From Halobacillus massiliensis (GTDB lineage: Bacteria; Bacillota; Bacilli; Bacillales; Halobacillaceae), in NCBI RefSeq assembly GCF_900166625.1, contig NZ_LT800499.1:2066115-2130114 (forward strand): a DNA stretch of 64,000 bases. The letters run 5' to 3'. The notes under the pieces are model-generated. The model searched no databases. It was not told the origin of the DNA and worked only from the letters and a program-made list of their open reading frames with translations. A program made the translations under genes and the position numbers. Of the stretch, positions 4,610 to 45,269 are shown one piece after another (position 1 is the stretch's first letter; the number at the start of each line of letters is the position of its first letter).

Positions 4610-5905
4610 GTGGGATTAGAAAAAATCAATATGCCTCAGCTTGGTGAAAGTGTAACCGAAGGAACTATAAGTTCCTGGCTCGTTCAGCCCGGCGATCAAG
4701 TAAAGAAGTATGATCCAATTGCAGAGGTAATGACAGATAAAGTAAATGCAGAAGTTCCGTCTTCATTTACAGGGACGATCAAAGAAATTATAGCTAAAGA
4801 AGATGAAACTATCGCTGTCGGAGAACTAATGTGTTATATCGAAGTTGAAGGGGCAGGCTCGGAAAAACAGGAAGACAAGGAATCAAAAGCCGAACCCGTA
4901 ACGGAAGACCCTGTCTCTGAACCGAAAGAGCAGAAGGATAAGAAAAAACAGCCGGCAGCAAGTAAAGACAGTAAAAAGAGATATTCTCCAGCGGTTATGA
5001 CACTTGCCCAGGATCATGATATCGATCTGCAGCAGGTGGAAGGATCGGGACGCGACGGGAGAATAACGAGAAAAGATATTGAAAAAATAATCGCCAGCGG
5101 TGAAATGCCTAAATCCGAAGCTCAACCGGCCCAGCATCAACCTGAAGAAGTAAGTGAACCTTCTGCACCTGTAGAAAAAACTTCTGCTGGTGTTCAGACT
5201 GAGAATGGAGACATCGAAATCCCGGTAACGGGTGTACGAAAAGCGATTGCCAACAATATGGTGAAGTCCAAAACTGAAATCCCTCACGCCTGGATGATGG
5301 TTGAAGCGGATGTGACAGGTCTTGTAGAGCTTAGGAATTCACTCAAAAATGAATTTAAACAAAAAGAAGGCTTCAGCCTGACATTTTTCTCGTTTTTCGT
5401 CAAAGCTGTGTCTCAAGCTTTAAAAGAATATCCACAGTTAAACAGCATGTGGGCGGGAGATAAGATTATCCAGCGAAAAGCAATTAATTTAAACATTGCT
5501 GTAGCAAAGGAAAATGAATTGTTTGTTCCAGTTATTAAAAACGCGGATGAGAAGAGCATTAAAGGAATTGCAAAAGATATTACCGATCTGGCTGCTAAGG
5601 CACGCCAGGGCAAGCTTACTTCTAAGGACATGGAAGGTGGAACGTTTACCGTTAATAATACGGGGTCCTTCGGTTCGGTTCAGTCCATGGGGGTTATTAA
5701 TCACCCGCAAGCTGCCATTCTTCAGGTAGAATCCATCGTGAAGAAACCTGTCTACCAGAACGGTATGTTTGGAGCAAGAGATATGGTTAACCTCTGTCTT
5801 TCACTTGATCACCGAATACTTGACGGTTTAGTTGCAGGGAACTTCCTGGCAAGGGTTAAAGAGATACTGGAGAATATGAGTAAAGAGAATATATCAGTTT
5901 ATTAA
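4610..5905 (+). CDS. bkdB: Branched-chain 2-oxo acid dehydrogenase E2 (lipoyl acyltransferase)
   Basis: Core E2 that transfers the acyl group from lipoamide to CoA. Domain order: N-terminal lipoyl domain (about 1-78, lipoylated Lys44 in MTDKVNAEV), charged flexible linker, peripheral subunit-binding domain (about 124-160), second linker, and the catalytic domain with the HRILDG motif (His401, Asp405). Its 431 residues are typical. GTG start at 4610 behind AGAAGGAGGAG. It is the last gene of the bkd operon, followed by a strong terminator hairpin. Confidence 0.95.
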   Translation: MGLEKINMPQLGESVTEGTISSWLVQPGDQVKKYDPIAEVMTDKVNAEVPSSFTGTIKEIIAKEDETIAVGELMCYIEVEGAGSEKQEDKESKAEPVTEDPVSEPKEQKDKKKQPAASKDSKKRYSPAVMTLAQDHDIDLQQVEGSGRDGRITRKDIEKIIASGEMPKSEAQPAQHQPEEVSEPSAPVEKTSAGVQTENGDIEIPVTGVRKAIANNMVKSKTEIPHAWMMVEADVTGLVELRNSLKNEFKQKEGFSLTFFSFFVKAVSQALKEYPQLNSMWAGDKIIQRKAINLNIAVAKENELFVPVIKNADEKSIKGIAKDITDLAAKARQGKLTSKDMEGGTFTVNNTGSFGSVQSMGVINHPQAAILQVESIVKKPVYQNGMFGARDMVNLCLSLDHRILDGLVAGNFLARVKEILENMSKENISVY

Positions 5906-20275: not shown

Positions 20276-20396
20276 GTATTTAGTGAAAAAACCATCTGTG
20301 ACTCACACTCTGTATTAATTATTCCATTGGCAGAGAAACAGGAGTCTCACAATTTTCCTAAAAGGCTTTTCCGTTTATTGATGTGTGAAGAAAAGC

Positions 20397-20500
20397 GGCT
20401 GGGAAATAGCTCGCTTTCCGCGGGGGGCCGGTGAGCTAGCTTGCTGCACTCGAGGATCTCACCCTGTTTCTATCTCCCTGCAGGAGTTTTGCCATTTCTC
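20397..20500. repeat. Palindromic intergenic element, subtype 1, copy A1 (3' arm decayed)
   Basis: Begins GGCTGGGAAATAGCTCGC and contains the GGTGAGCTAGC, GAGGATCTCACC and CTCCCTGCAGGAG blocks shared with copies at 20558, 44757, 44926 and 45072. The closing arm ATTTCCCAGCC is degraded to CCATTTCTC. It is preceded by a CCGTTTATTGATGTGTGAA flank also seen before copy A2. The sequence from 20276 to 20396 has no gene. Confidence 0.85.
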
Positions 20501-20557
20501 TTGATCTCTCTTTAAGAGGAGGAAGAAGGCTGTTCCGTTTATGAGGTGTGAAAAAGC

Positions 20558-20664
20558 GGCTGGGAAATAGCTCGCTTTCCACGGGGAGCCGGTGAGCTAG
20601 CTCGTTACACTCGAGGATCTCACCTTGGCTCTTCTCCCTGCAGGAGTCTCGCCATTTCCCAGCC
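20558..20664. repeat. Palindromic intergenic element, subtype 1, copy A2 (complete)
   Basis: A 107-base unit closed by GGCTGGGAAAT (20558-20568) and ATTTCCCAGCC (20654-20664). Inside, GAGCC/GGCTC and GGTGAG/CTCACC form nested stems, and CTCCCTGCAGGAG forms a small hairpin. It is near identical, in reverse orientation, to 44757-44863. Confidence 0.9.
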
Positions 20665-20765
20665 TCTTTACCGGCGATGGTATGAACGGAACGCAGTAGT
20701 TTCAGTAACTACTCTAGAAAATAGTTTTCTCTTACTAATTGTTCCATTACTTCTAATAAACGCGA

Positions 20766-20885
20766 AGGGCCGGGGGAAAGGGCGAGACTCCTAGGGGAGG
20801 ATAGAACAGGGTGAGATCCCGGAGGGCTAAAAGCCCGAGGAAGCTCAGCGTTCGCCCATGGAAAGCGAGTCGTTTCCCCAGGCCC
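20766..20885. repeat. Palindromic intergenic element, subtype 2, copy A3
   Basis: Closed by GGGCCGGGGGAAA and TTTCCCCAGGCCC. It contains GCGAGACTCCT, GGTGAGATCC and GGAAAGCGAG, the same three blocks as subtype 1, plus its own hairpin GGGCTAAAAGCCC. The T run after GGCCC (20884-20891) could let it terminate transcripts. Confidence 0.88.
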
Positions 20886-20937
20886 TTTTTTCTAACACAT
20901 AGTAAACGGAAATCTCTTCCCGTTTAAGGGAGAATTA

Positions 20938-21002
20938 AAGAAGCCTCCTTAGAAGAGAAGAACAGAGAAATCCCGGAAGCCTGAGGAAGCTCTGCGTTCG
21001 AG
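20938..21002. repeat. Decayed partial subtype 2 element
   Basis: The stretch GAACAGAGAAATCCCGGA followed by GCCTGAGGAAGCTCTGCGTT parallels the middle of the intact subtype 2 copy at 20801-20852. The end arms are missing. Confidence 0.65.
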
Positions 21003-21059
21003 GACTCATAGAATGGAATATTGCTGGTCAACCGCATAAAGAGATTTTTTCAAAAACTG

Positions 21060-28335: not shown

Positions 28336-28490
28336 TTCCTATAATGGCTTCTTTGATTTTCAAAATTGAGGATTCCGTTCCGTTTACCTGAATATGTAGA
28401 AGCCGACATGGGGAACCATGGACGAACGGTAAGCTTCCATACGCTAAAGCCTTTTGCGATCTTACCCTGTTCTTTTCTCCCATAGAAATA
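28336..28490. repeat. Degenerate subtype 2 palindromic element with flank
   Basis: The segment aligns with 44471-44630 after allowing gaps: shared are CTATAA..CTTCTTTGAT, the CCATGG/GAACG block, CGCTAAAGCCTTTTGCGATC and CCCTGTTCTTTTCTCCC. The GCTTTCC arm is deleted and the closing arms are decayed. Together with the terminator this accounts for most of the 28166-28583 gap, where no gene is seen. Confidence 0.6.
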
Positions 28491-44535: not shown

Positions 44536-44655
44536 GGACCTGGGGAAACGACTCGCTTTCCATGGGTGAACGCTGAGTTTCCTCGGGCTTTTAGCCCTCC
44601 GGGATCTCCCCCTGTTCTATCCTCCCCTAGGAGTCTCGCCCTTTCCCCCGGCCCT
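44536..44655. repeat. Palindromic intergenic element, subtype 2, copy B1
   Basis: The reverse-orientation partner of 20766-20885. It reads GGACCTGGGGAAACGACTCG at its left end, carries the GGGCTTTTAGCCC hairpin and ends CCCCCGGCCC. It is preceded by a flank (CTATAAAAACTTCTTTGAT) that is also recognisable beside the decayed copy at 28336. Confidence 0.88.
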
Positions 44656-44756
44656 TCGCGTTTATTAGGAGTAACGGAACATTTAGTAAGAGAAAACTAT
44701 TTTCTAGAGTAGTTACTGAAACTACTGCGTTCCGTTCATACCATCGCCGGTAAAGA

Positions 44757-44863
44757 GGCTGGGAAATGGCGAGACTCCTGCAGGGAGAAGAGCCAAGGTG
44801 AGATCCGCGAGTGTAACGAGCTAGCTCACCGGCTCCCCGCGGAAAGCGAGCTATTTCCCAGCC
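44757..44863. repeat. Palindromic intergenic element, subtype 1, copy B2 (complete)
   Basis: A 107-base unit from GGCTGGGAAAT to ATTTCCCAGCC. Inside lie CTCC-TGCAG-GGAG and the nested pair GAGCC-AA-GGTGAG ... CTCACC-GGCTC, a potential multibranched DNA or RNA fold. Confidence 0.9.
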
Positions 44864-44925
44864 TCTTTTCTCCGTACTTGATAAACGGAACAGGTCTTTC
44901 TCTGAGAAGAATGAATATGAAGCAA

Positions 44926-45020
44926 TAAAGAGACCCCTGCAGGGAGATAGAGCCATGGTGAGATCCGCGAGTGCGAGCTAGCTCACCGGCTCCCCGCGGA
45001 AAGCGAGCTATTTCCCAGCC
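44926..45020. repeat. Subtype 1 element, copy B3 (left arm missing)
   Basis: Identical in plan to B2, but the GGCTGGGAAAT arm is replaced by GAAGCAATAAAGAG. The right arm ATTTCCCAGCC-GCTTTTCTCC is intact. It is preceded by a GATAAACGGAACAGGTCTTT flank. Confidence 0.85.
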
Positions 45021-45071
45021 GCTTTTCTCCGTAACTTGATAAACGGGACAGGTCTTTCTCTGAGAAGAAGC

Positions 45072-45171
45072 AATAAAGAGACTCCTGCAGGGAGATAGAG
45101 CCATGGTGAGATCCACGAGTGCAGCGAGCTAGCTCACCGGCTCCCCGTGGAAAGCGAGTTATTTCCCAGCC
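45072..45171. repeat. Subtype 1 element, copy B4 (left arm missing)
   Basis: A tandem partner of B3, offset by about 158 bases, sharing the flank GATAAACGGGACAGGTCTTT and the same replaced left arm. B3 and B4 therefore arose by tandem duplication of a unit larger than the palindrome. Confidence 0.85.
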
Positions 45172-45269
45172 ACTATTCTCTTATTACAGAAACGGAACAG
45201 GCTTTAAAATTTCGGAAAACCTTCAGCATGGACCTTAACCTCATAATACTAGAGAAAATAAAATCATTG

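Follow-up and report, generated by a model that had tools for sequence, protein, structure and literature searches.

Paired hairpin modules of a composite repeat in Halobacillus massiliensis, probably derived from miniature transposable elements

A cluster of GC-rich palindromes between a dehydrogenase gene and a regulator gene of Halobacillus massiliensis raises the question of what kind of element it is and how its copies spread. The cluster lies at positions 20397-21002 of the window, the whole 64,000-nucleotide stretch of DNA analysed here, and a first-pass annotation had described it as two palindromic subtypes of a structured element under shape constraint, possibly a mobile hairpin.

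Paired hairpin modules in the window and across the genome

Direct reading of the sequence confirms both subtypes, here called S1 and S2, at these positions, and an 11-mer common to them (GCGAGACTCCT) matches the window five times with at most one mismatch, above chance (0.73 expected; shuffle maximum of 3). With an identity of ~72%, S1 and S2 are homologous and represent separate lineages of a single ~120-nt hairpin module (S), a relationship that the annotation had missed; the copies measured in the genome and the window are about 103-120 bp long.

We scanned the window with a covariance model (R1) of 60 rows, one of which is a window copy. The first composite (about 20328-21000) starts with a weak remnant of a third S1 copy, which includes CAGGAGTCTCACAATTTTCC (20328-20369, minus strand; 14.8 bits, E 0.015), followed by an outer S1 hairpin, S1' (20396-20511, minus strand; 79.8 bits), 89% identical to the inner S1, and by the inner S1 hairpin itself, with arms GGCTGGGAAAT/ATTTCCCAGCC (20557-20671, minus strand; 98.0 bits). 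A core spacer (20694-20739) separates this module from the inner S2 hairpin, with arms GGGCCGGGGGAAA/TTTCCCCAGGCCC (20763-20883, plus strand; 107.2 bits), beyond which a degenerate outer S2, S2' (20944-21000, plus strand), matches S2 over 24 bp at 20977-21000 and is the remnant of a further S2 copy, also missed previously. Short plus-strand sequences bracket the inner modules: TGTTCCGTTTA (20531-20541), conserved in the consensus of 60 composites, on the left of S1 and TGAACGGAACG (20683-20693; consensus AAACGGAACG) on its inner side, TGTTCCATTAC (20740-20750; consensus TGTTCCGTTAC) on the inner side of S2 and GTAAACGGAAA (20902-20912; consensus GTAAACGGAACA) on its right. The second composite (about 44538-45172) has the opposite orientation and is 89% alike over 527 bp; it consists of S2 (44538-44658, minus strand; 98.2 bits), S1 (44750-44864, plus strand; 101.5 bits), an outer S1 (44909-45021, plus strand; 68.9 bits) and a second outer S1 (45057-45172, plus strand; 77.6 bits). 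The window also contains a lone truncated S fragment (28416-28485, minus strand; 40.9 bits, model positions 29-97), located between a minus-strand metallo-beta-lactamase-fold gene and a minus-strand GDPD-family gene.

The further genomic copies that the annotation anticipated are abundant. In the two-contig H. massiliensis genome (4.31 Mb), a shared 17-mer is matched 113 times forward and 94 times in reverse with at most two mismatches (none for the reversed pattern), and an S2-specific 25-mer has 137 (63 + 74) with at most three (control 0). Of these 137 matches, 100 were listed; 83 of the listed ones are exact, and in six cases two of them are separated by about 220 bp. As such pairs are tandem copies, the 100 matches correspond to 94 sites. 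Within the same 100 matches, no S2-type copy falls in about 653-1134 kb of the second contig (~480 kb), and 25 of the 83 exact copies fall in its first 653 kb, an uneven spread that is unexplained. We fetched 60 stretches of 2.6 kb around 17-mer matches, of which 58 contain an outward-facing S1/S2 pair around a ~100-bp core, an architecture overlooked in the annotation, and the other two only one subtype; with the two window places, which have the same outward pair, the composites total 60. Each composite runs from a minus-strand S1 through a core of about 100 bp to a plus-strand S2, or has the mirror-image layout, and the consensus order is TGTTCCGTTTAC..S1 reversed..AAACGGAACG..core..TGTTCCGTTAC..S2..GTAAACGGAACA. 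In every array read, extra tandem copies sit outside the pair, S1 beside S1 and S2 beside S2. No promoters were seen by eye in the core consensus.

The modules resemble each other far more than the DNA between them does: across 54 H. massiliensis composites, mean pairwise identity is 92% for S1 and 90% for S2, versus 54% for the middle of the core. Cores fall into two main classes (35 and 14 of 51 composites at a cut of 0.72), with identities of 0.72 within and 0.59 between classes, a difference partly built in by that cut, whereas S units do not follow these subfamilies and are equally alike within and between them (0.860 and 0.875 for S1; 0.871 and 0.876 for S2). Core inversion was rejected as the reason for low core identity: among 52 composites (two others, lacking a clear core, were skipped), 691 of 1326 core pairs in forward orientation exceeded the 99th percentile of shuffles, and three did when reversed. 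Six near-identical loci (L033, L034, L044, L046, L048, and L049) were omitted from these core analyses and from those of own-copy alignments, composite ends, end searches, target duplications, neighbour orientation, within-genome changes, the within-genome part of the G-U versus A-C counts, sister-species units and the unit tree described below; the end searches and the neighbour orientations cover 56 loci.

Fold, placement and possible exchange among copies

The arms of S1 and S2 differ in sequence yet pair. To examine the fold we aligned 60 units (6 from H. massiliensis and 54 from relatives) out of 108 representatives chosen from 310 units. RNAalifold predicted 25 pairs, 21 of which have at least one double compensatory change; 90.8% of the 1494 pairing cells are paired, compared with 74.2% in shuffles, and 290 cells have changes on both sides of the pair, compared with 87.7. 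The covariation score is 0.538, against 0.227 in shuffled alignments and 0.07-0.12 when the partner is slid by 1-3 columns, the latter being a comparison in which the predicted structure is favoured, as it derives from the same 60 units. The shape constraint proposed in the annotation is thereby borne out between lineages. Such compensatory covariation is what is asked of a structured RNA; by itself, it does not separate RNA from single-stranded DNA. Blocks such as GAGACTCC, GAGGA, and GGAAAG are near-invariant in the 60 units. Judging from general nucleic-acid chemistry, tandem sheared G.A pairs could arise in a C-GA-G/C-GA-G internal loop. In 48 of the 60 units, the sense strand of S is more stable than its complement. 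We rejected G-U versus A-C counts (88:32 with wobble-dominated pairs dropped) as a guide to the strand of action; since they are biased by the chosen fold and folding the opposite strand gives a similar excess (175:95 versus 183:127), we make no claim about this strand.

Within the H. massiliensis genome the picture is different, and the expectation that differences between copies keep the stems, which stands across lineages, fails for single changes: 183 break and 87 keep a pair in S1 (of 270 cells), and 114 break and 96 keep one in S2 (of 210 cells). Double pair-keeping changes number 23 in S1 and 21 in S2 (shuffle mean of 7.8 for each; maxima of 16 and 15), and paired and unpaired positions are about equally divergent (6-7%). 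Between lineages the fold is thus under strong selection, and any selection on individual copies is weak, which is the pattern expected if the constraint acts on copies that spread.

Composites also have a characteristic placement. At the 56 loci, 32 have co-oriented neighbours, 23 convergent and one divergent (crude ORF caller), the sole divergent locus being an S1 fragment (L017); given that a circular chromosome has as many convergent gaps as divergent ones, this indicates a strong bias towards gene 3' ends. The annotated restriction to intergenic DNA holds throughout this sample except at L027, the one locus of 56 where, according to the same crude caller, an ORF of at least 150 aa overlaps the composite by more than 90 nt. 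The first window composite occupies a 932-bp gap between the genes for L-glutamate semialdehyde dehydrogenase and a PucR-type regulator, with a separate terminator-like palindrome already located 3' of the dehydrogenase gene. The regulator is up to 82% identical to those of relatives, the nearest being from Halobacillus sp. A1 and H. campisalis. Both genes could be placed in 19 of 33 relatives examined, with gaps of 110-435 bp in 17, 680 bp in one, and 838 bp in Pontibacillus yanchengensis, where an S pair lies within; among the three Thalassobacillus records named T. devorans, an S pair is present at this site in L107 and none in L082 and L105.

These data bear on the idea that S is a domesticated RNA or a protein-binding DNA hairpin that, for instance, ends or protects transcripts at gene 3' ends or organises the chromosome. 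Near-invariant unpaired blocks combined with strong covariation over many genera, the convergent bias and the likeness of S units across core subfamilies all speak for such a function. We nevertheless regard it as rather unlikely, given that most single changes among the copies of one genome disrupt pairing, that the sites can also be explained by an insertion preference of MITEs, and that copy number varies widely: the 17-mer is found in 49 of 61 genomes, counting H. massiliensis, and its matches range from 0 to 274 per genome. Nor did Rfam 15 provide a match at gathering score over the window or at E<=5 over 20300-21050.

Comparison with a sister species (G004) adds a dynamic component. Six of its 12 loci are at sites orthologous to fetched H. 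massiliensis loci, and at four of these six common sites the composite is inverted, as judged by unit-to-unit matching. Among the 11 G004 units at shared sites, seven are closer to another G004 unit than to the same-subtype H. massiliensis unit of that site (with one tie and three that are not), and for 10 of the 11 some other H. massiliensis unit matches better than the one on site. In a weakly supported tree of 41 H. massiliensis units (every unit of the six shared loci and 25 others drawn at random) together with 23 from G004, species labels are clustered (8 changes versus 19 when shuffled) but not separate. Such a pattern is compatible with sequence exchange among copies, with inversion of composites in place or with recurrent insertion at identical positions, and the shared sites could themselves be hot spots of repeated insertion. 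In a more radical reading, which we consider unlikely on the whole, S would be an independently conserved nucleic-acid domain carried by mobile elements and now maintained by the host as an outward-facing pair of two subtypes. The modules, not the intervening DNA, would be homogenised genome-wide and the whole composite would flip in place at fixed 3'-end sites; it would then evolve in concert as an element of the chromosome or of transcripts instead of being a decaying transposon.

S-bearing transposable elements of relatives and the origin of the window copies

In Halobacillus campisalis (G003) and sister genomes, S is found inside MITEs with the ends of IS1595-family transposons. The inverted ends GGCT[AT]TGTTAAAG.....TGTTGATATT are numerous in G003 (44 + 39) and G010 (50 + 53), scarcer in G001 (4 + 5) and limited to a single match in H. 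massiliensis (0 + 1). We identified 22 distinct S-bearing elements with both ends in G001, G003, and G010, 17 of them with two or more S and five with one. Nine have an exact 8-bp target duplication (ATATATTT, ATAAGAAT, ATCTTATT, AATAAATT, TTTTGTTT, TAAGTGAA, AAATGAAA, TTGTAAAT, and TTTTATAA), six of these having two S, and 13 have no exact duplication. Both empty sites that we searched for were found in the sister genome: the joined flanks of a G003 element match G010 unbroken (96%), with a single TAAGTGAA, and those of a G010 element match G003 across the junction (91%). In a genome from another family (G052), S occurs singly; both ends, at a distance of 182-237 bp from each other, are present in five of eight units, and each of these five elements has an exact 8-bp duplication. 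The ends, duplications and empty sites together lead us to conclude that the S-bearing elements of relatives transposed as MITEs, so that the mobility suggested in the annotation stands for them. In G045, G046, and G054, the ends are missing from most S units.

A candidate source of the transposition activity is found in G010, where two elements of 2.0 and 2.8 kb (L192 and L193) have the same ends as the S-bearing MITEs, exact 8-bp duplications (AATTCTTT and TTATATTT) and an open frame of 350 aa, which in L192 matches the IS1595 transposase family (NF033547, 205 bits; PF12762). The terminal inverted repeats of the S-bearing MITEs of G001, G003, G010, and G052 are shared with this autonomous element. 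Searched with nhmmer, the IS1595 elements of G010 have no S inside, so that descent of S from them is not established. The MITE-rich draft genome of G003 has no NF033547 match. Past the transposase gene, L192 (510-1378) and L193 (553-2256) have 0.9 and 1.7 kb devoid of ORFs of at least 100 aa. This part includes a palindrome, ATCTCGAAACTGAGTCTTCC..GGAAGACTCAGTATCGAGAT, and its two halves are similar to the arms of the S-bearing MITEs. Other elements with IS1595-type ends and exact 8-bp duplications contain no S (L173/L208 in G003 and L187 in G001; 758 and 173 bp).

The copies of H. massiliensis itself show none of these hallmarks, and for the window copies the proposed mobility finds no backing. 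IS1595-type ends are absent from the 145,854 bases of the 56 loci; with up to three mismatches the genome has one end-like match, located elsewhere than these loci, and with up to four there is one ~950 bp from S2 in L132. The internal arm motif GGAAGACTCAGTTTCGAGA matches the loci once with at most four mismatches (reversed control 0). The genome has no NF033547 match (10 of the 41 genomes searched have one), and in the 50 of 56 loci where both ends could be placed, target duplications of 2, 3, 4, 5 or 8 bp do not exceed those in shuffles. Lacking both IS1595 ends and target duplications, the window copies do not allow us to establish their route of spread.

We consider it probable that the palindromes are hairpin modules of a MITE-derived, BIME-like composite repeat that lacks its transposon ends. 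In Bacillales relatives, S forms the body of small non-autonomous IS1595-ended elements, presumably moved in trans by an IS1595 transposase, and many such elements of Halobacillus-like bacteria have two outward S modules around a core. The window composites would descend from such MITEs; in H. massiliensis the composite, devoid of IS1595 ends, persists at about a hundred or more sites, mostly at gene 3' ends in our sample, and gains tandem S copies. Recombination or gene conversion between copies may maintain the likeness of S, and the fold would be selected mainly in spreading copies, possibly because transposition benefits from a stable hairpin or because such a hairpin renders insertions tolerable at the 3' ends of transcripts.

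A quite improbable alternative to this MITE-derived origin is that a still active transposon of another family, with its transposase encoded elsewhere, moves the composite by the ends TGTTCCGTTTAC/GTAAACGGAACA. H. massiliensis composites do terminate near these sequences, several of the 25 own-copy alignments listed stop at these 10-12 bp inverted ends, and the copies are numerous and alike. However, there is no excess of target duplications in the 50 composites, the end sequence also brackets each inner module and may therefore be only an outer hairpin stem, and S units do not follow the core subfamilies, unlike in an element that moves as a block.

The Y1 transposase suggested as a possible mover in the annotation, in the form of a REP/REPIN-like repeat mobilised by a RAYT or IS200/IS605 enzyme, must in all likelihood be abandoned. 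An inverse pair of palindromes in extragenic sites does recall REPINs and BIMEs, and the S sense strand is usually the more stable one, but the only Y1_Tnp sequence of the H. massiliensis genome is a fragment with two stops, S is ~120 bp long, and the duplications and ends in relatives are those of an IS1595-family DDE element. Ordinary intrinsic terminators would likewise be GC-rich hairpins close to gene 3' ends, but this explanation is hardly tenable for repeats with long conserved internal blocks and no clear U-tract by eye, inserted at a window site already provided with a terminator-like palindrome after the dehydrogenase gene.

Known repeats, distribution and wider meaning

The repeat combines features of several known systems. 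Like IS1595-family MITEs, the S elements of relatives have the GGCT.TGTTAAAG...TGTTGATATT-type inverted ends of an IS1595 transposase element and 8-bp duplications; unlike them, the window copies have neither, and the body consists of one or two covarying ~120-nt hairpins. With BIMEs and REPINs, S1 and S2 share the arrangement of two related palindromes in inverse orientation, their extragenic location at 3' ends and the existence of tandem variants. REP units are short (20-40 nt, a size also given in PMC3733652), in contrast with the ~120 bp of S units, and the H. massiliensis repeat further differs from these systems by the lack of an intact Y1/RAYT gene in the genome and by its IS1595 link. 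By description, S also resembles the BOX elements of pneumococcus, intergenic repeats of modular build whose inner units vary in number.

Stem-loop families of Bacillaceae mentioned in PMC2267715 include Bcr1, Bhal-1, and Bhal-2; Bhal-1 (74 bp, 36 copies) belongs to B. halodurans, and a title cited there calls bcr1 specific to the B. cereus group. Compared by description only, bcr1 and Bhal-1 are, like S, intergenic stem-loop repeats of Bacillaceae, and Bhal-1 might be a relative of S. In the titles and abstract openings of the open literature we found no description of the S repeat or of IS1595 MITEs in Bacillaceae, which may have been described elsewhere, and a term search of the main text of a MITE review (PMC10969869) returned neither IS1595 nor Bacillus.

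A common Bacillales repeat is now tied to a named transposase family, and the body of a MITE is recognised as a covarying hairpin kept across many genera. Single-S MITEs, double-S MITEs and composites without ends form a natural series that makes several questions testable: why mobile DNA retains a structured hairpin, how repeats lose their ends yet stay alike, and whether copies undergo inversion in place. Judged by its covariation only, a repeat of this kind could easily be taken for a new functional RNA; our results suggest that selection on spreading copies can yield the same covariation signal.

Beyond H. massiliensis, 27 loci of other members of the genus comprise 13 with an outward pair and 14 with a single S. 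A covariance-model scan of a phylum sample with strict filters was positive in two of 199 genomes (H. massiliensis and one of the same class). A genome of the same class and another family (G229), in which the S model recognises all 18 candidates that were scored, with 57-67 bits, is a second expansion centre distant from Halobacillus. Some arrangements depart from those described above. In G010, a plus-strand S followed by a minus-strand S forms inward-facing pairs (L180, 1299-1715; L211, 1109-1366), which are neighbouring or truncated copies. In G045, three single S units without transposon ends are arranged in tandem with a period of about 162 bp (L227, 1074-1479). In Thalassobacillus, the right S unit contains a nested long palindrome with GGAAAG on both sides (L107, about 5546-5900; L078, about 359-600).
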